From: Candidatus Bipolaricaulota bacterium
GTDB taxonomy: Bacteria; Bipolaricaulota; Bipolaricaulia; UBA7950; UBA9294
Assembly (NCBI GenBank): GCA_026390315.1
Contig: JAPLGE010000057.1
Span: forward strand, 1-33,427
Direction: 5' to 3'
DNA: 33,427 nt
This document shows, piece after piece, positions 1-24,929 of this stretch (position 1 is the stretch's first letter; each line of letters opens with the position of its first letter). The position numbers and the translations under genes were made by a program. Under the pieces are notes generated by a model that saw only the letters and a list, made by a program, of their open reading frames with translations, searched no databases and was not told where the DNA came from.

Positions 1-3000
1 CGTTGGGCGCACCGCCACGTCCTCGTCGCGAGCACGATCAACCTGACCCTGAAGAGCGACGGGAGGGAGACGCTCGTCTGGGCTACAGATCTGGAGAGCG
101 GCGCGCCCGTCTCCTTCCTTCCCTTGGGCGGCTACGACGGAGACGGGAGCCGGATCGCCACGGCGACCACGGACGGAAACGGCCTCGCTCGCTTCCCTTC
201 CAGCGATCGCGCGCGCCCTGTCGCCGTCGCCGGCGAAGGCCCCTTCACGCTCGGGAGTCCGTTCTGGACGGACGGGATCTCTCCGTGGGAGTTCGGCTTT
301 GACGCGGGGTACCTCGAAGACGCAAGGGCGCACATCGACACGGATCGGCCGATCTACCGGCCCGGGCAGACCGTCCACTTCCGCGGCGTCGTCCGCCTCG
401 AGGACGACGCGCGCTACCGGCTCCCCGGCGCGGGGACGGTCGAGGTCAAGGTGTACGACGCCGCGTGGGAGCTCGTCTTCGACGCCCCTCTTCCACTCGA
501 CTCCTTCGGGACGTTCAGCGGCGACGTGACGCTCGCCGCGGGAGCCGCGCTGGGGGAGTACCGCGTCCAGGCGACGCTTGGCGACGCGACCTTCTCGGGC
601 TCCTTCCAGGTCGCGGCCTACCGCCCGCCGGAGTTCGAGGTGACCGTCGCGCCGGAGAAGGACGAGATCGCTCGCGGCGAAGAGACGGGCGCCGCGGTCC
701 AGGTGCGCTACTTCTTCGGCGGCCCGGTGAAAGACGCTCCGGTTGAGTGGAACGTCCTCTCTGGGGAGTACCGCTTCCAGCCGCCGCAGTTCGACCGCTA
801 CCGCTTCACCGACGAGGACGACCCGTGGGTCTGCTTCGACTGCTGGTGGCGGCGTCCCGAGCCGCCGCTCGTGATCCTGAGCGGGTCGGGGATGACGGAA
901 GCCGATGGGGCGCTCCTCGTCGAGATTCCAGCCGAAGCGACCGCCGGCCCCTCGGCCGTGCAGACCCAAGGGAGCCGCATCCTGACCGTGGAGGCGACGG
1001 TCCGCGGCGCCGACGGCCAAACCCTCTCCGGCCGGGGCACCGTTGTCCTCCACCGCGGCGACTTCTACGTCGGCCTTTCGCCCAGGGAGTCGGTGGGACG
1101 CGCCGGCGATGAGATGAGGGTCGATCTGGTGGCCGTGGACTGGGAAGGGAGACGCCTCCCGGAGCGATCTCTCGAGTACCTCCTCTACCGCCGCGACTGG
1201 ACGAACACGTTCGTCAAGGACGAGGCGGGAGGCGGCCGCTGGGAGTGGACGACGAACGACGTGGAAGTGACTCGTGGGACGCTCTCCACGGACGCGGCGG
1301 GGGAGGGCGTCCTGACCTTCATCCCGCCGGAAGGGGGATCCTATAAGGCCGTCGTGCGCGCCAACGACGCGGGCGGCCGCCGGGTCCAGTCGAGTGTCTT
1401 CGTCTGGGCGAGCGGCAAGGAGTACGTGTCGTGGCGGCGGACGAACGACGACCGGATCGCGCTCGTCTCCGACAAGCCGACTTACGTGCCAGGCGAGACG
1501 GCGAAGATCCTGATCCCGAGCCCCTTCTCTGGAGAGACCTGGGCTCTGGTCACCGTGGAGCGGGGGAGCGTCCTCTGCCACGAGGTCATCCTTCTCGAGT
1601 CGAACAGCACGGTGTACGAGCTTCCGATCACCGCGGACTACGTGCCGAACGTCTACGTCGGGGTCGTGCTCGTCGAGGGGCGCGCCAGGGCGCAAGCCGC
1701 CGCGGCGGGGGCTCCCGCGGCCGCCTCGCACAAGGTGGGCTACGTCGGCCTGACGGTCGAGCCAGTCCCGCAGAGGCTTCACGTCACCGCGGCCCCCTCG
1801 GCCGTGCAGGCTCTCCCGGGTTCCCAGGTGTCTTTCGACCTCTCTGTGACCGACTCGAGAGGGGACCCGGTCGAGGCGTCCCTCGCGGTCGACCTCGTGG
1901 ACAAGTCGATCCTGACCCTGCGGCCTCGGGTTCCGGAGGCGATCGTGGAGGCCTTCTACGGTCTCCGGGGGCTCGGGGTGACGACCTCGAGCGGCCTGGC
2001 CGTGTCGATCGACCGGCTCCTTCTCGAGCAGTTGCGGCAGGCGGCTACGTTGCGCGACGCCGAAGCGCCTCCGTACGGAACGGGAGAACTGCAGCCTGCT
2101 CGGCTCCTTGCAGCGGCGCCGGAGGGCGGAGCCGAAGGGATGACGGCGGACAGGGTCGCCAAGAGCGCCGCGAGCCAGCTCCCCGCAGGCATCGCGCTCC
2201 GGGAGGAGTTCGCGGACACGGCGTACTGGAACGCTCAAGTCGTGACCGGGCTAGACGGAAAGGCGCGCGTCCAGATCGACCTCCCGGACAACCTCACGAC
2301 CTGGGTCTTCCGCGCGGTCGGGACGAGCCGCGCCACGCAGGTCGGCGAGGCGACGGACGAGCTCTTGGTGACGAAGCCTCTCCTCGTCCGCCCGGTTACG
2401 CCGCGCTTCTTCGTCGTCGGGGATCGGGTGGAGCTTGCGGCCCTCGTGAACAACAACACGGCTGGAGAGCTCGTCGCTGGGGTGACGCTTGGCTCGGTCG
2501 GCCTGGCTCTGGGAAGCGGAGTCACCCAGACCGTGAGCGTCCCGGCCGCGGGCGAGGCGAAGGTGACGTGGTGGGCGACGGTCGAGGACGTACCGCAGGT
2601 CGACCTCGCGGTGAGCGCGGTCGCGGGCGACTACAGCGATGCCGCGCGGCCGCGCCTGACGACGGGACCCGAAGGGACTCTGCGCGTCTTCCGCTACACG
2701 GCTCCCGAGATCGTGGGGACCGCCGGCGAGCTCGTCGGAGAAGGGACGCGGACCGAGATCGTCGCGCTTCCGCCGCGCTACGACGACCGACGGGGAGAGC
2801 TCGCTGTGGAGCTCGATCCGTCCCTTGCGGCTGGGATGCGCGAAGGGCTCACGTATCTCGAGCACTTCGAGTACGAGTGCACTGAGCAGGTCGTCAGCCG
2901 CTTCCTCCCGAACGTTCTTACCTACCGGGCGCTCGTCGGCCTGGGGATACAGGACGCCACGCTCGAGGCGAAGCTCCCGGGTCTCGTCGAGGAAGGACTC

Positions 3001-4380
3001 TCCAAGCTCTACGTAGAGCAGCACGAGGACGGGGGGTGGGGCTGGTGGTGGGACGACTCGTCGAGTCCGTACCTCACCGCGTACGTTGTCTTTGCCTTGA
3101 CGAAGACGCGCGAGGCGGGGTTTGAGGTGCACGACGGAGCGGTCGAGCGGGGCCTCGATTTCCTCGAGGGAGAGCTCGTCTCGGCGCGCGAACTCGACTC
3201 GACGGGCGCGGCGAACCGGCAGGCGTGGGTGCTGTACGTCCTGGCCGAGGCGGGGCGGACGAAGGCGGCGAGCGAGTGGACGGCCGACCTCTTCGCGTCC
3301 CGCGGGAAACTCGCTCACTACGCTCGGGCCTACTTCGCGCTCGCGTTGTCGCTCGTTGGCCCACAGGACGGCCGTGTGGCGACGCTTCTCTCCGACGTCG
3401 AGAACGCGGCGATCCTCTCCGCGACCGGAGCGCACTGGGAGGAGAAGAACTACGACTTCTGGGCGATGAACACGGACACCCGCTCGACGGCGGTCATCCT
3501 CGAAGCCCTTGCCCGACTCGACCCACAGAACCCGCTCATCCCGAACGTCGTGCGCTGGCTGATGGTGGCGCGTCGGGAGGGGATCTGGGAGACGACGCAG
3601 GAGACCGCCTGGGCGCTCATCGCCCTGACGGACTGGATGATTCTGACGGGCGAGCTCAACGGGCGGTACGACTACGGGGTGACTCTTAACGGCGCCCTCC
3701 TCTCCTCGGGAAACGTTACGCCGGAGACGGTCGGGGACCCGATCCGTCTCTCTGTGGACGTGGCGCGGCTCCTGAAGGGGGTCGGCAACCGGCTGACGAT
3801 CGACCGGGGGCCGGGGGAGGGGAGGCTCTACTACACGTCTCGCCTCAAGGTCTACCTACCGGTCGAGGACCTCAAGCCGCTCGACCGGGGGATCAGCGTG
3901 AGCCGCCAGTACGTGCCTGCCGGGCGCGCTCCCGGCGAGGCGGGGGTGGAGATCGATCGGGCGGCCGTCGGTGAGAGCGTCCAGGTGCGCCTCACGATCG
4001 TCGCGTCGCGCGACCTCTACTATGTCGTCGTCGAGGATCCGCTTCCCGCGGGGGCCGAGGCGATCGACCCCTCACTTGCGACGACGAGCCGCCTCGAGAA
4101 GGAGCCGGGCCTGTTTCGTGACACGGACGGCGGCGGGGCTCCGTGGCGGTGGCTCGACTGGTGGTGGTGGCGCTGGTACAGCCGGAGCGAGCTCCGGGAT
4201 GAGAAGGTGGTTCTCTTCGCGGACTACCTCCCCGCCGGGACCTACACGTACCAGTACGCCTTCCGCGCGACCCAGGCGGGCGAGTACCGCGTGATCCCGA
4301 CGAGCGCCCAGGAGTTCTACTTCCCGGAGGTCTTCGGCCGCGCGGCGGGGCGCCTGTTCACCGTGACGGAGGGGAAGTAG
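1..4380 (+). CDS. Alpha-2-macroglobulin-like protein (bacterial A2M), 5'-truncated by the window edge
   Basis: Frame 1 is open from base 1 (RWAHRHVLVASTINLTLKSDGRETLVWATDLESGAPV...) and joins the 124..4380 ORF. MG-type motif 'DTDRPIYRPGQTVHFRGVVR', thioester-type motif 'YECTEQVVSRFLPN' (CxEQ), and a C-terminal 'ELRDEKVVLFADYLPAGTYTYQYAFRATQAGEYRVIPTSAQEFYFPEVFGR' typical of the A2M receptor-binding region. Confidence 0.95.
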   Translation, partial: RWAHRHVLVASTINLTLKSDGRETLVWATDLESGAPVSFLPLGGYDGDGSRIATATTDGNGLARFPSSDRARPVAVAGEGPFTLGSPFWTDGISPWEFGFDAGYLEDARAHIDTDRPIYRPGQTVHFRGVVRLEDDARYRLPGAGTVEVKVYDAAWELVFDAPLPLDSFGTFSGDVTLAAGAALGEYRVQATLGDATFSGSFQVAAYRPPEFEVTVAPEKDEIARGEETGAAVQVRYFFGGPVKDAPVEWNVLSGEYRFQPPQFDRYRFTDEDDPWVCFDCWWRRPEPPLVILSGSGMTEADGALLVEIPAEATAGPSAVQTQGSRILTVEATVRGADGQTLSGRGTVVLHRGDFYVGLSPRESVGRAGDEMRVDLVAVDWEGRRLPERSLEYLLYRRDWTNTFVKDEAGGGRWEWTTNDVEVTRGTLSTDAAGEGVLTFIPPEGGSYKAVVRANDAGGRRVQSSVFVWASGKEYVSWRRTNDDRIALVSDKPTYVPGETAKILIPSPFSGETWALVTVERGSVLCHEVILLESNSTVYELPITADYVPNVYVGVVLVEGRARAQAAAAGAPAAASHKVGYVGLTVEPVPQRLHVTAAPSAVQALPGSQVSFDLSVTDSRGDPVEASLAVDLVDKSILTLRPRVPEAIVEAFYGLRGLGVTTSSGLAVSIDRLLLEQLRQAATLRDAEAPPYGTGELQPARLLAAAPEGGAEGMTADRVAKSAASQLPAGIALREEFADTAYWNAQVVTGLDGKARVQIDLPDNLTTWVFRAVGTSRATQVGEATDELLVTKPLLVRPVTPRFFVVGDRVELAALVNNNTAGELVAGVTLGSVGLALGSGVTQTVSVPAAGEAKVTWWATVEDVPQVDLAVSAVAGDYSDAARPRLTTGPEGTLRVFRYTAPEIVGTAGELVGEGTRTEIVALPPRYDDRRGELAVELDPSLAAGMREGLTYLEHFEYECTEQVVSRFLPNVLTYRALVGLGIQDATLEAKLPGLVEEGLSKLYVEQHEDGGWGWWWDDSSSPYLTAYVVFALTKTREAGFEVHDGAVERGLDFLEGELVSARELDSTGAANRQAWVLYVLAEAGRTKAASEWTADLFASRGKLAHYARAYFALALSLVGPQDGRVATLLSDVENAAILSATGAHWEEKNYDFWAMNTDTRSTAVILEALARLDPQNPLIPNVVRWLMVARREGIWETTQETAWALIALTDWMILTGELNGRYDYGVTLNGALLSSGNVTPETVGDPIRLSVDVARLLKGVGNRLTIDRGPGEGRLYYTSRLKVYLPVEDLKPLDRGISVSRQYVPAGRAPGEAGVEIDRAAVGESVQVRLTIVASRDLYYVVVEDPLPAGAEAIDPSLATTSRLEKEPGLFRDTDGGGAPWRWLDWWWWRWYSRSELRDEKVVLFADYLPAGTYTYQYAFRATQAGEYRVIPTSAQEFYFPEVFGRAAGRLFTVTEGK

Positions 4381-4423: not shown

Positions 4424-4459
4424 GCCGGCCGATCCGATCGGCGGGGTTCTGCGGCCGGC
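4424..4459. terminator. Possible bidirectional terminator hairpins between convergent genes
   Basis: GCCGGCC (4424-4430) pairs with GGCCGGC (4453-4459). A nested GCCGATC-C-GATCGGC lies at 4428-4442. It lies between the A2M stop and the stop of the convergent ACT gene. No clear U-tract. Confidence 0.3.
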
Positions 4460-4863
4460 TAGCGCTCGCGGAGCATCTGAACGGCTTTCCCGTTGTTGGA
4501 AGAGGTGAAGATGACCAGGGCTCTCGCCGCGCCCTCGGCGACCGTGGCGTAGAGATCGTCGATGGTGATCTCCTTTCGCGCGAGGGCCTCCGTCACCCGG
4601 CACAGGAACCCGGGTCGGTTGGGGAGCTCGAGGACGATCACCTCTCGCTCCTCGACCGGGTAGCCGGCCTCTCGCAGGGCGTCGCGGGCGTAGAGCTGGG
4701 CGTCGGTCAAGAGATGCAGCGCCGCCGTCTCTCCTTCGACCCGCACGGTCACGGTGAGGAGGTTCATCCCCATGTCCGCGAGGAGTCGCGCCATGTCGGC
4801 GAGGAGTCCAATCCGATTCTCGACTCGAACGACGAGCTCCTGCCGAATCTGGGCGTCCAACAA
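4459..4863 (-). CDS. Tandem ACT-domain protein, probable TTG start
   Basis: Two ACT-like halves: 'ELVVRVENRIGLLADMARLLADMGMNLLTVTVRVEGETAALHLLTD' and 'VIVLELPNRPGFLCRVTEALARKEITIDDLYATV'. The listed ORF extends to 5007, but AAGGGAGG just upstream of TTG(4863)/TTG(4860) and a promoter-like sequence inside the longer ORF favour the short form. Confidence 0.8.
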   Translation of the reverse strand: MLDAQIRQELVVRVENRIGLLADMARLLADMGMNLLTVTVRVEGETAALHLLTDAQLYARDALREAGYPVEEREVIVLELPNRPGFLCRVTEALARKEITIDDLYATVAEGAARALVIFTSSNNGKAVQMLRER

Positions 4864-4896
4864 CGCACTCGCCTCCCTTGTGGCCCGAACTCCCCC

Positions 4897-4925
4897 ACTA
4901 TACACGGTTCCTGGGGCCCTGTCGC
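4897..4925 (-). promoter_or_regulatory. Putative sigma70 promoter of the ACT gene
   Basis: Minus strand: GCGACA (4925-4920), 17 nt, TATAGT (4902-4897); lies about 35 nt upstream of the proposed TTG start. Confidence 0.45.
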
Positions 4926-5070
4926 GGGGAACGCTTGCGCGCTCTTGGGAACGAGGCGCGGAGGGTCTCGACTCGCGGCTGACTCCGGTCACTCCGAGGC
5001 GCGACAAAGGTCTCCCGAGCTTCCTTTTTCAGTCCGTTCCGGGACTGGAGGCCTCGGCTAACCTCGGTGC

Positions 5071-7983
5071 GTGATGCGCGAGAGTCCTCGCCGGCTGGAG
5101 GGTGCCCTTCTCGTGGGGGCGCTCGTGGTCGCCTTTGGCCTTCACGCTTTCGGCGCGGCGCGGGTAAGCGTCCTCTCCCCGATCCGCGAGGCTGGCCCGG
5201 GCGAGTTCGTCACGCACGTCTTCTCGGTCCTGAACGAAGGAGGGGCAGCGGCGACCTTCCGCCTTGAGCTCGAGGTGCCGCCGCGATGGGGCCTCCTTGG
5301 CGTCCCGCCGGAACTTGCGCTCGCGACGGGTGAGGAGGGCACGCTGTTCGTGACCGTGACCGTCCCGCCTGGCGCAACGGCGGGGGAGTACCAGATCGTC
5401 CTGTACGTCGTTTCGGCGGCCGACCCGGAGGACCGCGCCTCGGCGAGCGCCCTCATCTCCGTGCGGGCTGAGAACGCTGTTTCGGTCATCATTTCGGCAG
5501 GGCAGAGCGTGGTCCCGGGAGGCGAGGCTCGCTACGACGTCACGCTCGTGAACCGGGGAAACGTCCAGGACGTCTTCCGAGTGGAAGCGATCTCGGGAAG
5601 CGGCTTCCGAGTCGCCCTCTCCCGCGACCTGGTCAGCCTCGCCCCGCAGGAGCGGGGGACGGTCGAGGTTCGAGTCCAGGTCCCCGGCGACGCGGCTCCC
5701 GGTCGCGACATCCTCACCGTTCGCGCCACCTCCACCGTGTACTCAGCCGTGAAAGAGGAGGCGGTCGTGTTCAGCACGACTCTCCCCCCTCCGCCGCAAG
5801 TCGTGGGGGGGACCCTCTTCGAGGAGCTTCCCGTTCGCCTTGAGCTCTCGGCCCGCGAGAACCTCCTCACCGGAAGCGTCCTGAGCGACCTTGTCTTCTC
5901 CCTGGCCGGCGCGGTCGGGGGCGGCTACCTCTCCGCGTTCGCTCGCGCCTCTCCCCTTTTCGGCCCCAGTTCCCTGGAAGTCGATTCCTTTCTCGTCTAC
6001 TACCGGAAGACTCCGACGACCTACACGATCGGAGACGTCTTCCAGAGGTTCACGGACCTGCTGGGCGTCTCCTGTCGCGGAGGAAGCGTGCTCGTTGACG
6101 AAGAACGCTACGACGTGAGGTTCGTCGCTGGCGGCAGGGACGGCGAGACGCGGGTCGGAGGGTACCTTGCTCTCGGACCGGAAGAGGCGAATCTGGGGAT
6201 CGCCCACACCGACCGGCGGGAGGGCGCTGACCAGAAGACGGTCTGGAGCCTCACGGCCGCCTGCGAGCCACTAGAGGACGTCCGGCTTCGCCTCGAAGGA
6301 GCCCTCGGGATCAACGGGGGCCTCACCAGCCACGCCTTCTTCTTCAACACGACCGTCGACACCTCCGGGTACTTCTTGAGCGGCGAGGCCTTCTCCGTGG
6401 GGACGTACTTTCCGGAGCTCCGCGCGGACGAGGCGGGGATCGCCCTGTCGCAGCGCCTGCGCCTCCAGGGGCTCTCCCTCGCCGCGTCCCTGGCACACCG
6501 CTGGGACAACGTGATCGGCGACCCGCGCTCCCCGACCACCACGAGCGACGAACTGGGGCTGAACGTGTTGCTCGTCCCGGGAGAGCCATGGCCGACAATC
6601 GCAGGGACGGTGGAGTTCTCCTGGGATCGGAGCGGAGCGCCCGCGCCGTCGAGCGACCTGGAGCGGCTTCTCTCGATCACGCTGGGCCGAAGTGAAGGGG
6701 CCTTCCCCTATGCGTTCTCAGGTCGGTGGAAAAACCAGGTCGATGCGCTCCTCGGGACGCACCTGCGGACCCTCTCGTTCAGCGAAGGCGCCGGGCTTTC
6801 GCTCGAGGGGTTCTACCTCTTCCTCAGGCTGACCCAGGAGGAGGTCGTCGACGCGGGGACCGGAGCCCTCCTCTCCGGGGGCACGGACGTCTCCCTCACC
6901 GTTCGCCCGAAGGGGGCGCTTCATTCGGCAAGCCTCACTTGGATGAACGAACAGGACGTCTCCAGGCTCTCCCTGGACCTCGACGTCCACATTCTGGAGG
7001 GGTTCCACGTTGTCTTCAGCGGCGCCTTGGGCTTTGACCGGACGGACGCCGCGGCCGCCACGTTTGAGTGCGGGGTCGCATTCAACCTCGCGTTCGACCT
7101 CCCCGTTCCATTCCTTGTGACGAAAGGACGGGTGGAAGGGCGGGTCTTCCTCGACCGGGACGGCGACGGCCGCTGGAGCCCGGCGGATCAAGGAGTGGGG
7201 AAGGCCGTCGTGTCGGCGGGGCAGAGCAGGGTGTCTACGGACGAGACGGGCCAGTTCCGCTTCCCGCCGTTCGGGCCTGGCTCGTACGTCTTCTCCGTGA
7301 GCGACCTTCCCTCGGCCGCGGCGCCGCCGCGAGCGCCGCAGGTCGAACTTCGCGCTGGGAAGACCGTCTGGATTGACATTCCCCTTTCGCCGGTGGTCGT
7401 CGTCTCCGGCGTCCTGTTCAACGACGTGGACCGGAGCGGGACCTTCTCCGCGGGGGAGGGTGGGTTCGCTCAGGTTCGGGTCCTCCTTCGGGGAGCGGGC
7501 GGGGCCGCGATCGGCGAGGCGCATACCGACGGGAACGGCCGGTTCGAGTTTCGTCAGGTTCGTCCCGGGACGTACACCGTGGTGGTCGATCGCACGACCC
7601 TGCCGGAGCGGTTCGTCTTTACCACGCCCGAGTCGGCGTCCGTAACGATCGGGGCGGGCGCCCCGACGGAGGTCCTCCTGGGGGGGACGATCAGGCCGAA
7701 GGCGGTCGTGATCACGTTCCAGCCCCCGACAGCAGACTTCGCGTACACACCGGCGCATCCCAAAGCAGGGAGCCCGGTTCACTTTGACGCCTCCGCGTCC
7801 TTCGACTTCGACGGCGAGATCGTCCTCTACGAGTGGGACTTCAACGGCGACGGAGCGCGGGACGCGGTCGGGCCGACGGTGGACCACGGCTTCCCCTCGG
7901 CGGGATCGTATGACGTGACCCTGACCGTGACCGACGACTCCGGGAGCTCGGACTCCATCACGATCACCGTGACCGTGGACTAG
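5071..7983 (+). CDS. Exported multidomain protein: NEW3-like tandem, predicted beta-barrel, two SdrB/Cna-B-like repeats, PKD domain
   Basis: GTG 5071 or ATG 5074. Hydrophobic N-terminus (GALLVGALVVAFGLHAFGA). N-terminal 'VLNEGGAAATFRLELEVPPRWG...GEYQIVLYVVSA' and 'VTLVNRGNVQDVFRVEAISGSGF...PGRDILTVRATS'. The middle is rich in alternating amphipathic strands. 'VEGRVFLDRDGDGRWSPADQGVG...STDETGQFRFPPFGPGSYVFSV' and 'GVLFNDVDRSGTFSAGEGG...TDGNGRFEFRQVRPGTYTVVVD' are SdrB-like. 'PTADFAYTPAHPKAGSPVHFDASASFDFDGEIVLYEWDFNGDG...YDVTLTVTDDSGSSD' is PKD. Confidence 0.85.
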   Translation: MMRESPRRLEGALLVGALVVAFGLHAFGAARVSVLSPIREAGPGEFVTHVFSVLNEGGAAATFRLELEVPPRWGLLGVPPELALATGEEGTLFVTVTVPPGATAGEYQIVLYVVSAADPEDRASASALISVRAENAVSVIISAGQSVVPGGEARYDVTLVNRGNVQDVFRVEAISGSGFRVALSRDLVSLAPQERGTVEVRVQVPGDAAPGRDILTVRATSTVYSAVKEEAVVFSTTLPPPPQVVGGTLFEELPVRLELSARENLLTGSVLSDLVFSLAGAVGGGYLSAFARASPLFGPSSLEVDSFLVYYRKTPTTYTIGDVFQRFTDLLGVSCRGGSVLVDEERYDVRFVAGGRDGETRVGGYLALGPEEANLGIAHTDRREGADQKTVWSLTAACEPLEDVRLRLEGALGINGGLTSHAFFFNTTVDTSGYFLSGEAFSVGTYFPELRADEAGIALSQRLRLQGLSLAASLAHRWDNVIGDPRSPTTTSDELGLNVLLVPGEPWPTIAGTVEFSWDRSGAPAPSSDLERLLSITLGRSEGAFPYAFSGRWKNQVDALLGTHLRTLSFSEGAGLSLEGFYLFLRLTQEEVVDAGTGALLSGGTDVSLTVRPKGALHSASLTWMNEQDVSRLSLDLDVHILEGFHVVFSGALGFDRTDAAAATFECGVAFNLAFDLPVPFLVTKGRVEGRVFLDRDGDGRWSPADQGVGKAVVSAGQSRVSTDETGQFRFPPFGPGSYVFSVSDLPSAAAPPRAPQVELRAGKTVWIDIPLSPVVVVSGVLFNDVDRSGTFSAGEGGFAQVRVLLRGAGGAAIGEAHTDGNGRFEFRQVRPGTYTVVVDRTTLPERFVFTTPESASVTIGAGAPTEVLLGGTIRPKAVVITFQPPTADFAYTPAHPKAGSPVHFDASASFDFDGEIVLYEWDFNGDGARDAVGPTVDHGFPSAGSYDVTLTVTDDSGSSDSITITVTVD

Positions 7984-8013
7984 CCCGTCGGTGCGCGTGA
8001 CGGGTCTCCTCCT

Positions 8014-8044
8014 CGTCGTCCGGCCGTCGGGCGGCGGGACGACG
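8014..8044 (+). terminator. Possible terminator/stem-loop downstream of the 970-aa gene
   Basis: CGTCGTCC (8014-8021) pairs perfectly with GGACGACG (8037-8044); no U-tract. Confidence 0.3.
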
Positions 8045-8051
8045 GTCCGCC

Positions 8052-8081
8052 TTGACACGAAACGGACTTCCTCGCTAACAT
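8052..8081 (+). promoter_or_regulatory. Putative sigma70 promoter of the mbh-like operon
   Basis: TTGACA (8052-8057), 18 nt, TAACAT (8076-8081), about 50 nt upstream of the first start codon. Confidence 0.6.
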
Positions 8082-8129
8082 GGGCGGGCCTCTCGGGGCG
8101 GCGAGGGGTCCGGCGACAAGAGGGGGGAT

Positions 8130-8657
8130 GTGATGCTCGCTTTCTCGATGACCTCGGTCATCGCCTTTGCCATGTACCTTGTCTTGACCCTCTTCTCCGG
8201 GAACGTGGGCCTGTGGAGCGTGGAAGAGCTCATCGCAGGAGCCGTTCTCGCCCTGGTCGCAGGCTGGGTCAGCCGCCGCGTCCTAGTTGGGGAACACGAA
8301 CGCGGGACGCCGTCGCCTTGGAGGATGCTCAACCCGCTTCGGCTCCTCCTTTTTTCCGCCTACTTCGTCGGGCCGTTCTTCGTCGCCCTGGCGAGAGCAA
8401 ACGTTGACGTCGCGTACCGCATCGTCACGGGGAGAATCCGGCCGGGGATCGTGAAGTTCCAGAGCGGCTTGAAGACCGACTTAGGAAGGACGCTCCTCGC
8501 CAACTCGATCACCCTCACTCCGGGGACGCTCTCCGTGGACGTGGACGACGAGACGGGCGACTTCTACGTCCACTGGATCAACGTGACGGACCCCGAGGCC
8601 TCGGCCGAGGCCATCTGCGGATCGTTCCCCGCGTGGGCGCGGAGGATCGCCGAATGA
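8130..8657 (+). CDS. mbhA: MnhE/MrpE-like subunit (MbhA position)
   Basis: GTG 8130 or ATG 8133 after a G-rich SD. 'LWSVEELIAGAVLALVAGWVSRRVL...FVALARANVDVAYRIVTGRIRPGIVKFQSGLKTDLGRTLLANSITLTPGTLSVDVDDETGDFYVHWINV' is a typical MnhE signature. Confidence 0.92.
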   Translation: MMLAFSMTSVIAFAMYLVLTLFSGNVGLWSVEELIAGAVLALVAGWVSRRVLVGEHERGTPSPWRMLNPLRLLLFSAYFVGPFFVALARANVDVAYRIVTGRIRPGIVKFQSGLKTDLGRTLLANSITLTPGTLSVDVDDETGDFYVHWINVTDPEASAEAICGSFPAWARRIAE

Positions 8658-8920
8658 TCGTCTCCCCGATCCTCTTCTTCATCGTGTGCGCCTTCCTCCT
8701 CCTCTTCGCCGCTTTCGGCATGGCGCGGATCGCTCTCGGGCCGACGGCGGCGGATCGAGTGGTGGCGTTGGACACGATCAACACCCTCGTGGTCGCGGTC
8801 ATGATCGTCCTGGGCGCCGCGTACGATCAGGTCGTCTTCGTCGACGTGGCGATCATCTACGCCCTCGTTTCCTTCGTGGGAACCCTGTACATCGCCCGCT
8901 ACCTGGAGGGGGGACTGTGA
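8654..8920 (+). CDS. mbhB: MnhF/MrpF-like subunit (MbhB position)
   Basis: ATG 8654 overlaps the previous stop (ATGA). 'MARIALGPTAADRVVALDTINTLVVAVMIVLGAAYDQVVFVDVAIIYALVSFVGTLYIARYLEGG'. Confidence 0.92.
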   Translation: MIVSPILFFIVCAFLLLFAAFGMARIALGPTAADRVVALDTINTLVVAVMIVLGAAYDQVVFVDVAIIYALVSFVGTLYIARYLEGGL

Positions 8921-9252
8921 GATTCCTCATCTACGTCCTCGTCGGGATCGGGATCGCTGCGAACGGGCTCGGGGCCTTCTCTCTCCTGCGCTTCCCCGAC
9001 GTCTACACCCGCCTGCACGGGGCGACCAAGTGCACGACCTTCGGGTCGATCTTCACGACGCTGGGCGTGATCGTGTACGGCTTCGCCCGCGGCGGGCCGG
9101 CGTACCAGACCCTGGCCGTGCACGCCTTGATCGCGCTGGTCGCGCTCTTGATCACGAATCCGACCGGATCGCACGCCATCGCCCGAGCGGCCTACCGCAG
9201 CGGGGTCAAGCCCAAGGGCGCCGTGGTGGACAGGCTGGAGGAGCGGCGATGA
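8917..9252 (+). CDS. mbhC: MnhG/MrpG-like subunit (MbhC position)
   Basis: GTG 8917 overlaps the previous stop (GTGA). 'GLGAFSLLRFPDVYTRLHGATKCTTFGSIFTTLGVIV' is an MnhG signature. Confidence 0.92.
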   Translation: MRFLIYVLVGIGIAANGLGAFSLLRFPDVYTRLHGATKCTTFGSIFTTLGVIVYGFARGGPAYQTLAVHALIALVALLITNPTGSHAIARAAYRSGVKPKGAVVDRLEERR

Positions 9253-9500
9253 TCGCCCAGGAGATCGTCCAGGTCATCACGCTCGTCTTAATCCTCGTAG
9301 GGGCGGCCCTTGCGGTCTCGTTCAAGGATCTCCTCGCCTCGATCCTCGCCCTGGCCGGGGCGAGCCTGCTCGTGTCGCTCGAGTTCTACATCCTGCAAGC
9401 TCCGGACGTCGCGATCGCCGAGGCGGCCATCGGAGCGGCTCTCACCACGGCGATCTACGTCATCGCGCTCCGCCGCACACGGCGGAAGGAGAAGGAATGA
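9249..9500 (+). CDS. mbhD: DUF4040-type hydrogenase/antiporter subunit (MbhD position)
   Basis: ATG 9249 in an ATGA overlap. 'KDLLASILALAGASLLVSLEFYILQAPDVAIAEAAIGAALTTAIYVIALRRTRR'. Confidence 0.88.
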   Translation: MIAQEIVQVITLVLILVGAALAVSFKDLLASILALAGASLLVSLEFYILQAPDVAIAEAAIGAALTTAIYVIALRRTRRKEKE

Positions 9501-9772
9501 AGAAGGCCGCGGTCTTCGCTGCCTTTGTCTTCGTGGCCGCGTTCCTACTCTTCGCGGCGGGTCGCCTCCACCCGTTCGGGGAGCCGAGCGCCCCGGCGAT
9601 GGACGACTACTTCCTCGCTCACTCCCAGGCCGAGACGGGGGCGAACAACGTCGTGACGGCGATCGTCTTCGACTACCGCGGCTTCGACACTCTGGGCGAG
9701 GCGACGGTGCTTTTCGCCGCCATCCTCGGGGTCGTGGCGGTCTTTCGCGGGCCGCGGGAGGACGAGCGATGA
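9497..9772 (+). CDS. mbhE: MbhE-like subunit
   Basis: ATG 9497 in an ATGA overlap. 'AETGANNVVTAIVFDYRGFDTLGEATVLFAAILGVVAVFR' matches the MnhB N-terminal/MbhE type. Confidence 0.88.
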   Translation: MKKAAVFAAFVFVAAFLLFAAGRLHPFGEPSAPAMDDYFLAHSQAETGANNVVTAIVFDYRGFDTLGEATVLFAAILGVVAVFRGPREDER

Positions 9773-10239
9773 GGGGGGAGATGTCGGTCATCGTCCGGAC
9801 GATCGCTCGCATCACGTACGCCCTGATCCTCGTCTTCGGGTTCTACGTGATCCTACACGGCCATCTGACTCCCGGCGGAGGCTTCCAGGGAGGGGCCGTG
9901 GTCGCGTCAGGGTTCGCGCTTCTGCCGGTCGCTTTCGGCGCGGCCGCCGCGAAACGCTACCTGAACCCAAGCCTCATGCGCCACCTCGAAGAGGTCGGTT
10001 CGCTCGCCTTCCTCGCGCTCGGCTTCCTGGGGATTGGGATCTCCTTCTTCTACAACGTCCTCGCGAACTCGGGATCACTCTTCGGCGCCGCCGTCCCGTT
10101 CGGCCCCAACTCCGGGATCCTGAACAGCGCCGGGACGCTTCCATTCATGAACTGGGCGGTGGGCCTCAAGGTGATGACCGGCCTCATGACGATCGTCCTC
10201 GTCCTGCTCATCGGCGCGGGAAAGGAGGGGAAGGACTGA
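9769..10239 (+). CDS. mbhF: MnhB/MrpB-like subunit (MbhF position)
   Basis: ATG 9769 in an ATGA overlap. 'ITYALILVFGFYVILHGHLTPGGGFQGGAVVASGFALLPVAFG' is an MnhB signature. Confidence 0.92.
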   Translation: MRGEMSVIVRTIARITYALILVFGFYVILHGHLTPGGGFQGGAVVASGFALLPVAFGAAAAKRYLNPSLMRHLEEVGSLAFLALGFLGIGISFFYNVLANSGSLFGAAVPFGPNSGILNSAGTLPFMNWAVGLKVMTGLMTIVLVLLIGAGKEGKD

Positions 10240-10241
10240 CG

Positions 10242-10592
10242 ATGGGCAACTTCCCGTTCGTCGTCGCGATGCTGCTCGTGATTCTCGGGCTGTACACGCT
10301 CCTGTTCAAGCGGAACCTGATCAAGCTCGTGATCGGGGCGTCGCTCATCGAGACCGGCGTGAACTTGTTCCTCGTCGCTCTCGGATACCGCACGGCCGGG
10401 ATTGCCCCGATCTACACGTACGCGCCCCCGGCGCTCGCCGACCGGATGGTTCTTCCCACGCCCCAGGCCCTCACCCTGACAAGCATCGTCATCGGCCTCG
10501 CGACGACGGCGCTCCTGCTCTCGTTCGCCGTCGTCATCCACCGGCACTACGGGACGCTCGACGTCCGCGAGGTGAAGGAACTCAAAGGATGA
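10242..10592 (+). CDS. mbhG: MnhC/NuoK-like subunit (MbhG position)
   Basis: 'ILGLYTLLFKRNLIKLVIGASLIETGVNLFLVALGY...LPTPQALTLTSIVIGLATTALLLSFAVVIHRHYG'. Confidence 0.92.
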   Translation: MGNFPFVVAMLLVILGLYTLLFKRNLIKLVIGASLIETGVNLFLVALGYRTAGIAPIYTYAPPALADRMVLPTPQALTLTSIVIGLATTALLLSFAVVIHRHYGTLDVREVKELKG

Positions 10593-12145
10593 ACGCCCTC
10601 TCCGTGCACGCTCCGGTCCTTCTCGTCGCGACCCCGCTGTTGGCGGCCTTCGTGGTGCCTTTGGTCGCGAAGCTCGGTTCGACCGTGAGAAACGCCGTTG
10701 TCGGCGTCTTCACCCTGTTGACCGCGTCGCTCGCCGGCCTCGTCGCGGCGAACGTCCTCGCGGGGAGCGGGGCCCCGTCCGTGTACGTGTTCGGCGCAAA
10801 CCCGCTCAACCTGACCCTTCCCTCAGGCATGCACGTCCCGATCCGGATCCTGTTCGAGGTGGACGGAATGAGCGCGTTCATGATCCTCATCACGGCGCTC
10901 GTGGCGGTCGCCGCGACCTTGTATAGCTTCTCCTACTTCAAGGAGCATTCTGGGGGAGAGATGTACTACCCGCTCCTCTTCCTCCTTCTCGCCGCGATCT
11001 TCGGGATGGAAGAGACAGGCGACCTGTTCAACTTCTTCGTCTTCCTTGAGATTGCGGGCATCGCCGCGTGCGGCCTGATCGGATTCCGCCCTTGGCGGGG
11101 GCGGTCGCAAGAGGCGGCGTTCAAGACGATGGCCCTGTACACCCTCTCCGGCCTCTTCGTCCTGATCGCTCTCGGCCTTCTCTACGGCCAGCACGGCGGG
11201 CTCAACATCGCCTACCTCTCGAGCCGCGTCGGAGCGGGGATGCTCGACCTGGTGGCGCTCGGCCTTCTGGTCGTCGCCCTGGGGACGAAGGCGGGGGTCG
11301 CGCCGATGCACATGTGGGCCCTGGACGCGTACGGGGAGGCACCGGCTCCCATCTCCGCGGTCCTCGTGGCGAGCAGCCAGGCGAGCCTGTACGGCCTCTT
11401 TCGCGTCTTGTTCACGCTCTTCGGCGCGGCGGTCAGCGTGGCCGCGTTGGGGTGGTTCCTGATCGCTCTTTCCGTGCTCACCCTCTTCGTGGGGGTGACG
11501 ATGGCTCTCCTCCAGAAGGACATCAAGCGCCTGATCGCCTACGGAGCGGTCTCCCAGATCGGGTACATGCTCCTGGGGGTGGGGGTCGGCTTCACCACGA
11601 GCGGGAGTCGCCCGGCGTACGGGTTCGTGGCGATGCAGGGCGGGATCTTCCACATGGTGAACGACGCCGCCTGCATCGGGCTCCTGTTCCTGGCGGCTGG
11701 GGCGGTCCACCGGGCGTCCGGGACGCGCGACCTGAATCGGATGGGCGGGCTCGGGCACGATATGAAGTGGACGGCCGCCCTCTTCGCGATCGGGGCGCTC
11801 GCCCTGGCCGGGGTCCCGCCGTTCAATGGGTTTTCCTCGAAGCTCCTCATCTACGAGTCGTCGTTCGCGGCGAGCCCGATCTTGGCCGCCATCGCTATCC
11901 TGTCGAGCATCCTCCTCCTTGCCGTGTTCATGAAGGTCTTCCAGGCGGCGTTCCTCGGGCCCCGCCTCCTCGAGAACGTGCGCGAGGCTTCTCGCGGCAT
12001 GCTCGTGTCCATGCTCATGCTGGCGGTCGTGGTCGTCGTCTTTGGCCTCTTCCCGGGTTTCTTCGTCGACAAGCTGGTGACCCCGGCGGCGAAGGCGCTG
12101 TGGCTGGGGAGAGACGCCTACGTCCGGGCCGTGCTGGGAGGCTAG
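10589..12145 (+). CDS. mbhH: MnhD/NuoN-like proton-translocating subunit (MbhH position)
   Basis: 518 aa polytopic. 'EETGDLFNFFVFLEIAGIAACGLIGF...GTKAGVAPMHMWALDAYGEAPAPISAVLVASSQASLYGLFRVLF...LLQKDIKRLIAYGAVSQIGYMLLGVGVG'. Confidence 0.95.
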   Translation: MNALSVHAPVLLVATPLLAAFVVPLVAKLGSTVRNAVVGVFTLLTASLAGLVAANVLAGSGAPSVYVFGANPLNLTLPSGMHVPIRILFEVDGMSAFMILITALVAVAATLYSFSYFKEHSGGEMYYPLLFLLLAAIFGMEETGDLFNFFVFLEIAGIAACGLIGFRPWRGRSQEAAFKTMALYTLSGLFVLIALGLLYGQHGGLNIAYLSSRVGAGMLDLVALGLLVVALGTKAGVAPMHMWALDAYGEAPAPISAVLVASSQASLYGLFRVLFTLFGAAVSVAALGWFLIALSVLTLFVGVTMALLQKDIKRLIAYGAVSQIGYMLLGVGVGFTTSGSRPAYGFVAMQGGIFHMVNDAACIGLLFLAAGAVHRASGTRDLNRMGGLGHDMKWTAALFAIGALALAGVPPFNGFSSKLLIYESSFAASPILAAIAILSSILLLAVFMKVFQAAFLGPRLLENVREASRGMLVSMLMLAVVVVVFGLFPGFFVDKLVTPAAKALWLGRDAYVRAVLGG

Positions 12146-12146
12146 G

Positions 12147-12485
12147 GTGAACGGGATCAACTCTGGATTCGGAGCCTGGAATCCGCTCGTGTGGACGGCG
12201 CTCTTCCTTGGGATCGTCGCGGTGGCGCTTGCGATCCGCGCTCTGGGGCGGAAGGACTACAAGAAGAAGACGGGCCAGACGAAGGTCTACCTTTCCGGAA
12301 ACGAAGAGCCGGAGCCGGAAGACCTCCACGTGCGCGGAGACGCCCTGTACTGGGGAATGGTGGAGGCGCTCTCTGGCTACTACCGCCGCGCCCGTGCCCT
12401 GCACACGGGGATCCTCTCCGACTACTTCGCGTGGATCATCGTGACGCTCGGGATCGTCTTCGTCCTGCTCGCGGTGGGACGGTGA
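12147..12485 (+). CDS. mbhI: MbhI-like small membrane subunit
   Basis: GTG 12147. 112 aa with hydrophobic segments at both ends. Lies between the MnhD-like and NuoB-like genes, as MbhI does. Confidence 0.75.
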   Translation: MNGINSGFGAWNPLVWTALFLGIVAVALAIRALGRKDYKKKTGQTKVYLSGNEEPEPEDLHVRGDALYWGMVEALSGYYRRARALHTGILSDYFAWIIVTLGIVFVLLAVGR

Positions 12486-12489
12486 GCGC

Positions 12490-12933
12490 GTGAGACGACT
12501 GCCTCGGTCGTTCAAGCGAGCCTTGTGGGTCTACCACGTCGCCACCGGCTCCTGCAACGGCTGCGACATCGAGATCGTGGCCGCGCTGACGCCGCGCTAC
12601 GACGCGGAGCGATTCGGGATCATGCTCACGGGGACCCCGCGCCACGCGGACGTCCTTTTGGTCACGGGGCCGGTGACGCGGCCGATGCGCGAGCGTCTCA
12701 TCCGGATCTACGACCAGACCCCGGATCCCAAGGCGGTGGTCGTGGTCGGGGGCTGTGGCTCGACGGGAGGCGTCTTCTACGACTCGTACAACGTGAGGGG
12801 GCCGGTGGACGCCGTGGTGCCGGTTGCCGTCTACGTGCCGGGCTGTCCCTGTCGGCCTGAGGCGATCCTCGACGGGGTCGTCAAGGCGGCCGTCGAGCTC
12901 GAGAAGCTCGAGCGAAGCGAGGTGAGCGCATGA
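12490..12933 (+). CDS. mbhJ: Hydrogenase small subunit, NuoB-like (MbhJ position)
   Basis: GTG 12490. 'GSCNGCDIEIVAALTPRYDAERFG...HADVLLVTGPVT...VVGGCGSTGGVF...PVAVYVPGCPCRPEAILDGV' retains the four cluster cysteines. Confidence 0.95.
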   Translation: MRRLPRSFKRALWVYHVATGSCNGCDIEIVAALTPRYDAERFGIMLTGTPRHADVLLVTGPVTRPMRERLIRIYDQTPDPKAVVVVGGCGSTGGVFYDSYNVRGPVDAVVPVAVYVPGCPCRPEAILDGVVKAAVELEKLERSEVSA

Positions 12934-13454
12934 CCCCCGAGGCGCTCCTCTCCACGTTCCGCGAGGCGTTCGGGGAGAAGATCCTCTCGACGCGGACCGT
13001 CACCCACTCGGTCGGACGCGAGCGCCATGCGGTGCACAACGTCTGGATCGAGATGGGTCGGGAGACGCTCCACGACGCGGTCGCGCACCTCACGTCGTTC
13101 TCCCATTTGCATCTCTCGGTCATCTCGGGGGACGACCTCGGAGAGGCGATCGCGTTCAACTACCACTTCGCGGTTGGGTTCGGAGAGCGCTTTGGCGAGG
13201 TCGTCCTCACGATCCGTGTCGTGGTCCCGAAGGGCGACCTGCGGCTTCCCACCCTCACCGACCTCATCCCCGGCGCCCTGACCTCGGAGCGGGAGAAGCA
13301 GGAGTTCTTCGGGGTCGTCGTCGAGGGGATCCCCGATCCGCGGCACCTGTTCCTTCCCCAGGAGGCGACGTTCCACCCCTGGCGGAAGGACGAGGCGGCC
13401 GCGATCGGGCGGGAGACCCGTCACCTCGTTGACTGGGAGACGCCGCATGAATAA
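12930..13454 (+). CDS. mbhK: NuoC-like subunit (MbhK position)
   Basis: ATG 12930 in an ATGA overlap. 'LRLPTLTDLIPGALTSEREKQEFFGVVVEGIPDPRHLFLPQE' is NuoC-like. Confidence 0.88.
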   Translation: MTPEALLSTFREAFGEKILSTRTVTHSVGRERHAVHNVWIEMGRETLHDAVAHLTSFSHLHLSVISGDDLGEAIAFNYHFAVGFGERFGEVVLTIRVVVPKGDLRLPTLTDLIPGALTSEREKQEFFGVVVEGIPDPRHLFLPQEATFHPWRKDEAAAIGRETRHLVDWETPHE

Positions 13455-14703
13455 CGAGTCGCAGAAGATCACGACGCCGAGGCAGGGGAAGACCTACACG
13501 ATCCCGATCGGACCGGTCCACCCCGCCCTGAAGGAGCCGATCGAGTTCTCCTTTGAGCTCGACGGCGAGAGGATCGTCGGTGTGGACATCCGGCCCGGCT
13601 ACGCCCACCGCGGAATCGAGTTCATGGGGATGAAGCGGAACCTCATCCAGGTCCTCTACCTCTCCGAGCGGATCTGCGGGATCTGCTCTATATCCCATCC
13701 CCTCGCCTTGACGCAGGCCGTCGAGAACGCGGCCGGGATCGAGGTCCCACCGCGCGCCCAGTACATCCGCACGATCATCGGCGAGCTGGAGCGGATCCAG
13801 TCGCACCTCCTGTGGGCGGGAGTGGCCGCGCACGAGCTCGGGTTCGACACCCTCCTCCACCTCACCTGGAAGGTGCGGGAGAAGGTGATGGACCTCCTGG
13901 AGGACCTCACGGGGAACCGGGTCGACTACGCGATCCCGATCTTCGGCGGCGTGCGGCGCGACATCCCCGCGGCGAAGGGCGACCTCGCACACGCGGTCCT
14001 CCGCTATTACCGGGACCTTCTTCAGGGGCTGATGGACGCCTTTCTGGAGGATAAGTCGGTCGAGATGCGGACGCGACACGTCGGAGCCCTCTCGCGCGGC
14101 GACGCGCTCCGGCTCTGCGCGGTCGGGCCGACGGCGCGCGCTGCGGGCGTCGAGAAGGACGTCCGCCAGGACATGCCCTATTTCGCCTACGCGGACCTGG
14201 AGGTTCGAGCCATCACTCCAAGAGACTTCGAGCAGGAGCCCGTGGGCGACGTGTTCGACACGATCATCGTCCGCCTCCTCGAGGTCGCGCAATCGATCGA
14301 GATAGTCGAGCGTGCGCTTTGCGAGATGCCGGAGGGGGAACTCGTCTCGATCCCCAAGGTGGCGGCGCTCCTCTCCTTCTTGAAGAAGGCGGAGGGAGAG
14401 GGGATCGGCCGCCACGAGGCCCCGCGCGGGGAGGTCTTCCACTACGTTCGGCTCGAGGCGGGCATCGAGGAGCCGATCGTGTGGAAGGTGAAGGCCCCCA
14501 CCTACTCAAACCTCATGGCGTGGGTCCCCAAGTTCATGGGGGCGGAGGTGGCGGACATCCCGATCATCGCTGCCTCGATCGACCCGTGCATGTGCTGTAT
14601 GGACCGCGTGCACGTCGCCGATCGATCCGGGAGGGCGTCGATCCGGATGAAGGAAGAGCTGATTCGGCTCTCGCGGGAGAAGACACGGAGGATCCTGGGA
14701 TGA
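13447..14703 (+). CDS. mbhL: [NiFe]-hydrogenase catalytic large subunit, group 4 / NuoD-like (MbhL position)
   Basis: ATG 13447, 8-nt overlap with the previous gene. N-terminal 'SERICGICSISHP' (CxxC) and C-terminal 'DPCMCCMDRVHV' (CxxC) both intact. Confidence 0.96.
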   Translation: MNNESQKITTPRQGKTYTIPIGPVHPALKEPIEFSFELDGERIVGVDIRPGYAHRGIEFMGMKRNLIQVLYLSERICGICSISHPLALTQAVENAAGIEVPPRAQYIRTIIGELERIQSHLLWAGVAAHELGFDTLLHLTWKVREKVMDLLEDLTGNRVDYAIPIFGGVRRDIPAAKGDLAHAVLRYYRDLLQGLMDAFLEDKSVEMRTRHVGALSRGDALRLCAVGPTARAAGVEKDVRQDMPYFAYADLEVRAITPRDFEQEPVGDVFDTIIVRLLEVAQSIEIVERALCEMPEGELVSIPKVAALLSFLKKAEGEGIGRHEAPRGEVFHYVRLEAGIEEPIVWKVKAPTYSNLMAWVPKFMGAEVADIPIIAASIDPCMCCMDRVHVADRSGRASIRMKEELIRLSREKTRRILG

Positions 14704-15695
14704 CGGGTGGGATCGGGGCGGCGATTTGGCAAGGAGCGACGGTCCTCATCGGCGGCGCCCTCCTCGGCCTCGTGTATAAGGGGATCGATCGGAAGCTCGC
14801 CGCGCGCATGCAGGCGCGGATCGGGCCGCCGCTTCGACAGCCGTTCTTCGACGTCGTCAAGCTCCTGGCCAAGGAGAACGTCGTCCCCGATCACGCGATC
14901 GCGTGGCTGTTCAACGGGGCGCCGGTCGTCTCTCTGGCCGCGGTCTCAAGCCTCCTCTTCTACCTCCCGCTCGGAGGGTTCGCTCCCCTCCTGGGAGGGC
15001 ACGGCGACCTTGTCCTCGTCATCTACCTCCTTGCCGTCCCGGCGATCGCGATGATGGTCGGCGGGTTTGCCGCCGCGTCTCCGTACGCCTCGGTCGGGGC
15101 GCAGCGCGAGATGGTGATGCTGATGAGCTACGAGTTTCCCCTCGTCATCGCCCTCGTCTCGATCGCCTGGAGGCTCTCCACGATCCTGCCTGAGGCGTCT
15201 GTCTTCTCGCTTTCCGTGCTCGCCGCCAATCCTCTCTGGGACTGGGTCGGGCCGCTGGGAGCCGTGGGGCTCGTCCTCCTCGCCCTGGCCCTTCTGGTCG
15301 TCACGCCGGCCGAGCTCTCCAAGATCCCGTTCGACATCCCGGAGGCGGAGACCGAGATCGCGGGAGGACTCCTCGCCGAGTACTCGGGTCGGAACCTCGC
15401 CCTCTTCTACCTCGCCGACGCGGTGAAGACCGTGGCGATGGCGGCGCTCCTCGTTGCCCTCTTCTTCCCTTACGGACTGGCCGACCGCTTGTGGCTCTCC
15501 GGCCCGCTCGCCGGGCTGGTCGACGTCGCCTTCTTCCTCATCAAAGTGCTCGTTGTGGTCTTCTTCTCCGTCATTGTGGTCCGGGTCGGGTTCGCGCGCC
15601 TGAAGATCGACCAAGCCGCTCGCCTCTTCTGGATCCCGGTCACGGGGATCTCCCTCGTGGGGATGGTTCTCCTGATCCTTGATCGCGTGGCCTAG
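14700..15695 (+). CDS. mbhM: NuoH-like membrane subunit (MbhM position)
   Basis: ATG 14700 in an ATGA overlap. 'GIDRKLAARMQARIGPPLRQPFFDVVKLLAKENVVP...PYASVGAQREMVMLMSYEFPLVIAL...IPFDIPEAETEIAGGLLAEYSGRNLALFYLADAVK'. Confidence 0.96.
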   Translation: MTGGIGAAIWQGATVLIGGALLGLVYKGIDRKLAARMQARIGPPLRQPFFDVVKLLAKENVVPDHAIAWLFNGAPVVSLAAVSSLLFYLPLGGFAPLLGGHGDLVLVIYLLAVPAIAMMVGGFAAASPYASVGAQREMVMLMSYEFPLVIALVSIAWRLSTILPEASVFSLSVLAANPLWDWVGPLGAVGLVLLALALLVVTPAELSKIPFDIPEAETEIAGGLLAEYSGRNLALFYLADAVKTVAMAALLVALFFPYGLADRLWLSGPLAGLVDVAFFLIKVLVVVFFSVIVVRVGFARLKIDQAARLFWIPVTGISLVGMVLLILDRVA

Positions 15696-23990: not shown

Positions 23991-24797
23991 CTACAGACCA
24001 AACTGATAGGCCAACGCGTCCTGGTACGCCTGCCGATACTCGGCGCTCTTGATGTTGAGGACGCCAAGGAGCTTCGTCTCAAGATCCGTGACCGACGTGC
24101 TGAGGAGGAGCGGCGTCAGCGCCACTTTCCCCGCCACGCGGAGCCCTTCGCTCGAACCGCTGATCGCGAGGGTCTCGTACTCGGCCTGGGTCTTGGGGGC
24201 GAAGGACAGGTACCAGCCGCCCAGGGTCTCCCCGGCGGCGTAGGCGAGCTCGGCGCTCTCGCTCGTCACGGCCGCCTTCTCCAGGACGGGGATGCTCACG
24301 ATGTTCACGTTGGTGCGCGACTTGACGTAATAGGCCTTCGCGGCCGCGAGCCGCGATTCGTGGGTCGCCGCCGTGTCCGTGGCCATCGTTTTCAGAGCCG
24401 CCGCTGCCTTGGTGATGAGGAGCACCTGGATCGGATCGATCGCGGCGACCCGCACCATCTCAGCGACCTTCGCGTCGTTGATGATGGCCGTCAGATCGGC
24501 CTCAGTCATCGTCTTGGCGCTGACCTTTCCCGTCCAGATGATGGACAGGGCCCCGCTCGCCGCCGTGCGGAGGCCGATAGTCAGGCCGTTCGCGGCGAGA
24601 TCCTTCAGATAGTCTTCGGTCTTCGTCCCCGCGTAGCTCTTGGCCAGCGCGATGCCGGCCGCGGCGTTGATCTCGGGGATCAGTTCGCCGGTGGCAACGG
24701 CCTCAAGCTGTGCCGCCGTATAGGCGAACGCCGTAAACGCGAACAGCGCGAGCATGCAGGCGAACGCACCCAATGCCCGAAGGCGCGAAACTCCCAT
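23991..24797 (-). CDS. Secreted all-helical repeat protein of unknown function, first gene of the opp operon
   Basis: Signal-like 'LRALGAFACMLALFAFTAFAYTAA'. HEAT-like internal similarity: 'EDYLKDLAANGLTIGLRTAASGALSIIW' versus 'AEYETLAISGSSEGLRVAGKVALTPLLL'. Strong SD AAAGGAGGT. Confidence 0.75.
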   Translation of the reverse strand: MGVSRLRALGAFACMLALFAFTAFAYTAAQLEAVATGELIPEINAAAGIALAKSYAGTKTEDYLKDLAANGLTIGLRTAASGALSIIWTGKVSAKTMTEADLTAIINDAKVAEMVRVAAIDPIQVLLITKAAAALKTMATDTAATHESRLAAAKAYYVKSRTNVNIVSIPVLEKAAVTSESAELAYAAGETLGGWYLSFAPKTQAEYETLAISGSSEGLRVAGKVALTPLLLSTSVTDLETKLLGVLNIKSAEYRQAYQDALAYQFGL

Positions 24798-24900: not shown

Positions 24901-24929
24901 ATACTACCAGGAACCTGCGGGACGGTCAA
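24901..24929 (-). promoter_or_regulatory. Putative sigma70 promoter of the secreted repeat protein-opp operon
   Basis: Minus strand: TTGACC (24929-24924), 17 nt, TAGTAT (24906-24901). The -35 overlaps the stop region of the upstream gene. Confidence 0.6.

Follow-up and report, generated by a model that had tools for sequence, protein, structure and literature searches.

The closest described counterparts of the locus analysed here are the ushers FimD and PapC (PF00577), in which, as predicted here, a large single-chain outer-membrane barrel is followed by two small beta-sandwich domains, and whose systems include, as putatively here, partner genes for a PapD-like chaperone and for small Ig-like subunits. 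Archaic chaperone-usher systems are described as more widespread than the classical ones (PMC4654587), which makes an extension of the pathway plausible; the proteins described below lie outside the standard family models. Donor-strand fibres are also known outside classical chaperone-usher systems, as TasA/TapA fibres and archaeal thread filaments, and the TasA fibre has a chaperone-like partner (PMC10151520, PMC9715654); neither an usher nor an outer membrane takes part in these assemblies. WxLIP, a DUF916-DUF3324 protein of Firmicutes, is predicted to complete the sandwich of its small partner WxL by inserting a strand, without making a pilus (PMC10599100). For one bacterium of the Bipolaricaulota (Acetothermia), the searches reported in a genome paper turned up neither flagella nor fimbriae, pili or adhesins; the same paper left undecided whether the cell has one or two membranes (PMC6092417). 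In the literature searched, we came across no account of chaperone-usher systems from Bipolaricaulota or Acetothermia, and no such pathway has so far been recognised in the two deep-branching phyla concerned, Bipolaricaulota and Deinococcota.

The window, a stretch of 33,427 nucleotides, is contig C221 of a Bipolaricaulota MAG with a genome of 1.76 Mb, and one of its genes, with a GTG start, encodes the large protein whose features are collected in Table 1. Judging from predicted structure and gene order, we consider it probable (about 0.7) that this barrel protein is the outer-membrane assembly platform, functionally the usher, of a cryptic chaperone-usher-like pathway. The computed observations behind this reading are a conserved gene and its domain order, a predicted barrel, fold matches to ushers and chaperones, and an operon found in two phyla.

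Table 1. Position and basis of the features assigned to the barrel protein and its gene (window coordinates).
Feature	Residues (aa)	Window position (nt)	Strand	Basis
Usher-like outer-membrane barrel protein (putative), whole gene	970 aa	5071..7983	+	ORF; full-length conservation in relatives; model
Signal peptide (approximate)	1-29	5071..5157	+	N-terminal hydrophobic helix aa 8-23, sequence and model
Ig-like NEW3-type domain 1	30-131	5158..5463	+	Pfam NPCBM_assoc; model strands
Ig-like NEW3-type domain 2	137-237	5479..5781	+	Pfam Ig_VWA7/FixG_C; model
Predicted 26-strand beta-barrel	250-683	5818..7119	+	Model pLDDT, Foldseek, alternation, loop lengths
SdrB/transthyretin-like domain 1	686-774	7126..7392	+	Pfam SdrD_B/CarboxypepD_reg (two stretches); model
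SdrB/transthyretin-like domain 2	776-874	7396..7692	+	Pfam SdrD_B 782-856; model
PKD domain	885-969	7723..7977	+	Pfam PKD_4, E 1.6e-19

Standard databases show the barrel protein merely as a series of generic surface domains. Besides the PKD domain, Pfam detects a pair of NEW3/FixG_C/VWA7-Ig-type domains (residues ~43-223) and two SdrD_B/CarboxypepD_reg domains (~700-866), with no family assigned to residues ~240-695, and no NCBIfam family exceeds its cut-off. The initial annotation had read the gene as a single exported chain of tandem NEW3-like domains, a barrel, SdrB-like repeats and a C-terminal PKD domain, and both Pfam and the AlphaFold model back this order. The SdrB-like repeats can now be counted as two, a small correction, and the single C-terminal PKD domain holds for the window protein, while its relatives carry from one to several in tandem. 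Using the central 463 residues as a query, we obtained a match in 64 of 100 Bipolaricaulota genomes, mostly one per genome, and 41 relatives could be aligned with the barrel protein. Relatives throughout the phylum share the whole domain chain (28-52% identity), which identifies the barrel protein as the product of a conserved gene.

The AlphaFold model of the barrel protein, built with the alignment of the relatives, has a mean pLDDT of 87.9 and places two Ig domains, 26 strands, two small sandwich domains and the PKD domain in succession. The central strands are contiguous and long (9-20 residues), without sandwich-type breaks, with pLDDT values mostly of 90-95, and the turns between them are all short (2-10 residues). 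Their hydrophobic alternation is strong relative to permutation (z = 9.1, versus 4.9 for the pooled sandwich strands of the same protein). No plug-like insertion is present in the barrel protein, and a sizeable insertion occurs in only one or two relatives. When the model was compared with the PDB using Foldseek, FimD and PapC ushers ranked first, the top usher match being 3rfz (E 3e-15, ~760 aligned columns); the TM-scores of the usher matches, for a query that is itself a predicted structure, are modest at 0.3-0.48, with 0.48 by target length for the PapC pore 2vqi. From these features we infer that the central region forms a closed outer-membrane barrel. The usher-like flavour that the initial annotation had sensed in this strand-rich, amphipathic stretch is supported, and the structure model yielded a barrel, not the stack of Ig domains that had been named as the refuting outcome. 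The 26 strands also raised LptD as a candidate identity, which we dropped since the flanking domains differ and LptD is not among the best 50 Foldseek matches.

Resemblance to ushers does not extend to sequence. PF00577 is absent from the barrel protein at E<=1 in Pfam and from all 100 Bipolaricaulota and all 81 Deinococcota genomes searched, a profile comparison with the six ushers of E. coli K-12 was negative, and an hmmsearch of the PDB with the barrel protein gave no link to ushers. The predicted barrel has 26 strands instead of 24 and is without the plug that is inserted in the barrel of ushers. The usher N-domain is missing, with the NEW3-type Ig pair in its place, and SdrB/transthyretin-like domains and a PKD domain follow the barrel, unlike in FimD and PapC. 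The two beta-sandwich domains directly after the barrel do match usher C-terminal domains 1 and 2 in position. The usher-like idea is therefore supported by independent lines, whereas membership of the usher family fails on sequence, plug and N-domain. An even strand count would leave the NEW3 and SdrB pairs and the PKD domain in the periplasm, which is also the arrangement of ushers. With both ends, PKD domain included, on the periplasmic side, the adhesin half of the proposed 'outer-membrane assembly or adhesin architecture' becomes unlikely, and it is the assembly half that is supported.

Many relatives have, immediately before the barrel gene, a gene for a secreted protein of two Ig domains, a domain set shared with PapD-family chaperones, including the archaic CsuC and the alternative CfaA. 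This chaperone-like gene is present in 87 of 100 genomes of the phylum and in all 38 high-quality ones; PapD_N (PF00345) occurs in none of the 100. Pfam assigns WxLIP_PGBD to one member (E 2e-6, 28.2 bits against a cut-off of 27.3), the others scoring below the cut-off, and the family's sequence match in the PDB is to WxLIP chains (9i1y/9i25, E 0.003). A model built from three sequences only (mean pLDDT 64) has WxLIP among its top fold matches, followed by dozens of PapD-family chaperones of classical and non-classical kinds (FimC, CsuC, CfaA, Caf1M). At the profile level, 62 sequences of the family match the seven chaperones of E. coli K-12 weakly but end to end (score 17.1, P 0.0027), compared with a highest score of 6.0 in 40 column shuffles and with scores of 0.0 against E. 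coli pilins and 1.6 against ushers. In an alignment of the two families, RIKLF of the chaperone G1 strand lies opposite RFGVKVY, and NDYG opposite DYGG of the chaperone-like family. The PapD-like traits of the family include a G1-like strand (R..VKVY) with conserved, positively charged residues and a DYG-like motif.

The closest relative in both sequence and fold is WxLIP, which differs in having a C-terminal transmembrane helix and in belonging to monoderm cells, with no outer-membrane barrel as a partner. As WxLIP is predicted to insert a strand into its partner, both of the nearest families, WxLIP and PapD, suggest strand donation. Unlike PapD-family chaperones, the chaperone-like proteins of the window's closer relatives contain a large insert, and many members of the family end in dockerin-like calcium-binding tails (e.g. 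L116:7267-8271 and L131:3910-4989), which is unusual for a periplasmic chaperone; at L131, a second gene with a dockerin (5004-6167) adjoins the chaperone-like gene. Compared with the two NEW3 domains of the barrel protein, the 62-sequence profile gives an end-to-end match (probability 98.9, E 3e-16), so the N-terminal part of the barrel protein is itself chaperone-like; the family also lies near generic NEW3 domains. Two proteins of one operon, the barrel protein and the chaperone-like protein, point independently to the same pathway. A second conserved cluster was noted at L169, L181 and L182, where a chaperone-like domain lies beside proteins of ~800 and ~440 residues that start like MKHECRRKPFWIAVVAIAAVGVAVLVVW.

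Upstream of the chaperone-like gene lie one to three genes for small secreted proteins of Ig size. Seeding an iterated profile with two modules from the window's own genome brought together ~90 such pilin-like proteins, whose extreme C-terminus is formed by a conserved strand (..G.Y..T..YT.T). Some are two-domain proteins with the module in C-terminal position and resemble two-domain tip adhesins. For the pilin-like proteins, Pfam and NCBIfam gave no match and the PDB none of significance, and the WxL family was not found in the small proteins tested. Compared with E. coli pilins, their profile is not significant (P 0.05), the lower P of another comparison having been favoured by signal peptides, and the match to TLP-1/TLP-2 in the PDB is at chance level only.

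These genes recur in the order pilin-like, (tip-like), chaperone-like, barrel. A barrel-family gene directly follows the chaperone-like gene at 28 Bipolaricaulota loci (21 selected through the barrel, 7 through the chaperone-like gene), and pilin modules immediately precede the chaperone-like gene at 23 Bipolaricaulota loci. In the window's own genome, the barrel gene stands apart from the chaperone-like gene, which is on another contig, C25 (locus L164), in a row with a pilin-like gene (6992-7465), a gene for a 442-residue protein carrying the pilin module at its C-terminus (7589-8914) and then the chaperone-like gene itself (8981-10132). The search for pilin- or chaperone-like genes elsewhere that the initial annotation had proposed therefore found them both here and in the operons of relatives. 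Outside the phylum, the chaperone-like profile matches 40 of 81 Deinococcota genomes, and 12 of 15 inspected Deinococcota loci show the operon order of small proteins, chaperone-like protein and barrel-family protein, frequently with a further small protein before the last. The Deinococcota barrel-family genes match the full profile with E-values of 1e-34 to 1e-64, mainly through the flanking domains, and a Thermaceae match has the domain chain of the barrel protein. Omp85 was detected in four of five Bipolaricaulota genomes tested, so the cells look diderm. Just upstream of several operons lies a conserved gene for a secreted, strand-rich protein of ~400 residues (L134:3546-4739, L009:1925-3112), possibly a further barrel, with a sigma-factor-like gene that may encode a regulator.

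In the pathway that we propose, small secreted Ig-like subunits would enter the periplasm and be capped by the two-Ig PapD/WxLIP-like chaperone, which would donate a beta-strand to them. The chaperone-subunit complexes would then be received in the periplasm by the barrel protein's NEW3 pair, which is itself related to the chaperone, and strand exchange would polymerise the subunits as they traverse the wide 26-strand barrel, giving a surface fibre. The SdrB-like pair after the barrel would fill the role of the two C-terminal domains of the usher, the PKD domain remaining periplasmic. Of all these steps, gating is the hardest to explain without a plug of the usual kind, and the lumen of the barrel may instead be occupied by an Ig or SdrB domain. 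Going further, and more tentatively, with odds slightly below even, the barrel protein could define an usher class of its own (26-strand, plugless, with an N-terminal chaperone-like fusion) within a fibre system of Bipolaricaulota and Deinococcota, maybe ancestral or independently evolved, that links PapD chaperones, WxLIP and ushers. If these readings are correct, the usher-like barrel and its partners supply the Bipolaricaulota with a surface fibre as well as a marker for the outer membrane, chaperone-usher-like export reaches deep-branching lineages in which standard Pfam models do not see it, and a plugless barrel with a fused two-Ig module informs the evolution and gating of ushers.

The same gene set could instead build an outer-membrane anchor or adhesin complex, in which the barrel would hold WxLIP-like and small Ig-like proteins at the surface or envelope without polymerising or exporting a fibre; it would be the diderm equivalent of the Gram-positive WxL clusters. 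That WxLIP is the closest relative of the chaperone-like protein and, by prediction, itself lends a strand to WxL with no pilus resulting (PMC10599100) agrees with such a complex, as do the many dockerin-like tails. WxL clusters are, however, without a barrel, while the best matches of the barrel found here are ushers, and several small-subunit genes together with a two-domain, tip-like subunit suit a fibre better, so that we regard the anchor complex as unlikely.

Less probable still, the barrel might serve as a wide porin or as an exporter of different cargo (polysaccharide, nutrient or lipid), with the Ig, SdrB and PKD domains acting as periplasmic tethers and the neighbouring genes being incidental. 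Short barrel loops and the lack of a visible plug would fit a channel, and several genomes of the window's own family pair the barrel gene with alpha-2-macroglobulin and ACT genes and not with the chaperone-like gene; yet chaperone-like and pilin-like genes are found linked to the barrel gene time and again, in many genera and in two phyla, and no porins are found among the best 50 fold matches, nor is LptD. As every flanking domain is a beta-sandwich, the whole chain might also be imagined as an extended surface protein of stacked sandwiches with no barrel at all, but the run of 26 consecutive strands, their confidence and alternation and the usher matches largely refute this, leaving it highly improbable. 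The assembly platform of a chaperone-usher-like pathway remains our preferred reading of the barrel protein.

Within the window, the region just upstream of the barrel gene holds a bacterial alpha-2-macroglobulin gene that is cut off by the window edge (1-4380, +) and, between it and the barrel gene, an ACT gene (4459-5007, -). This trio is syntenic in several genera, but only in part, of the window's own family, for which reason we took it as context and set aside a functional link. Two further ORFs (24926-26725, -, 599 residues, and 23991-24797, -, 268 residues) have no Pfam match at E<=0.001. Positions 8130-15695 (+), immediately 3' of the barrel gene, encode an Mrp-antiporter and hydrogenase/complex-I-like membrane complex that includes MnhE, MnhB, Proton_antipo_M, the 49-kDa/NiFe large subunit and NADHdh.
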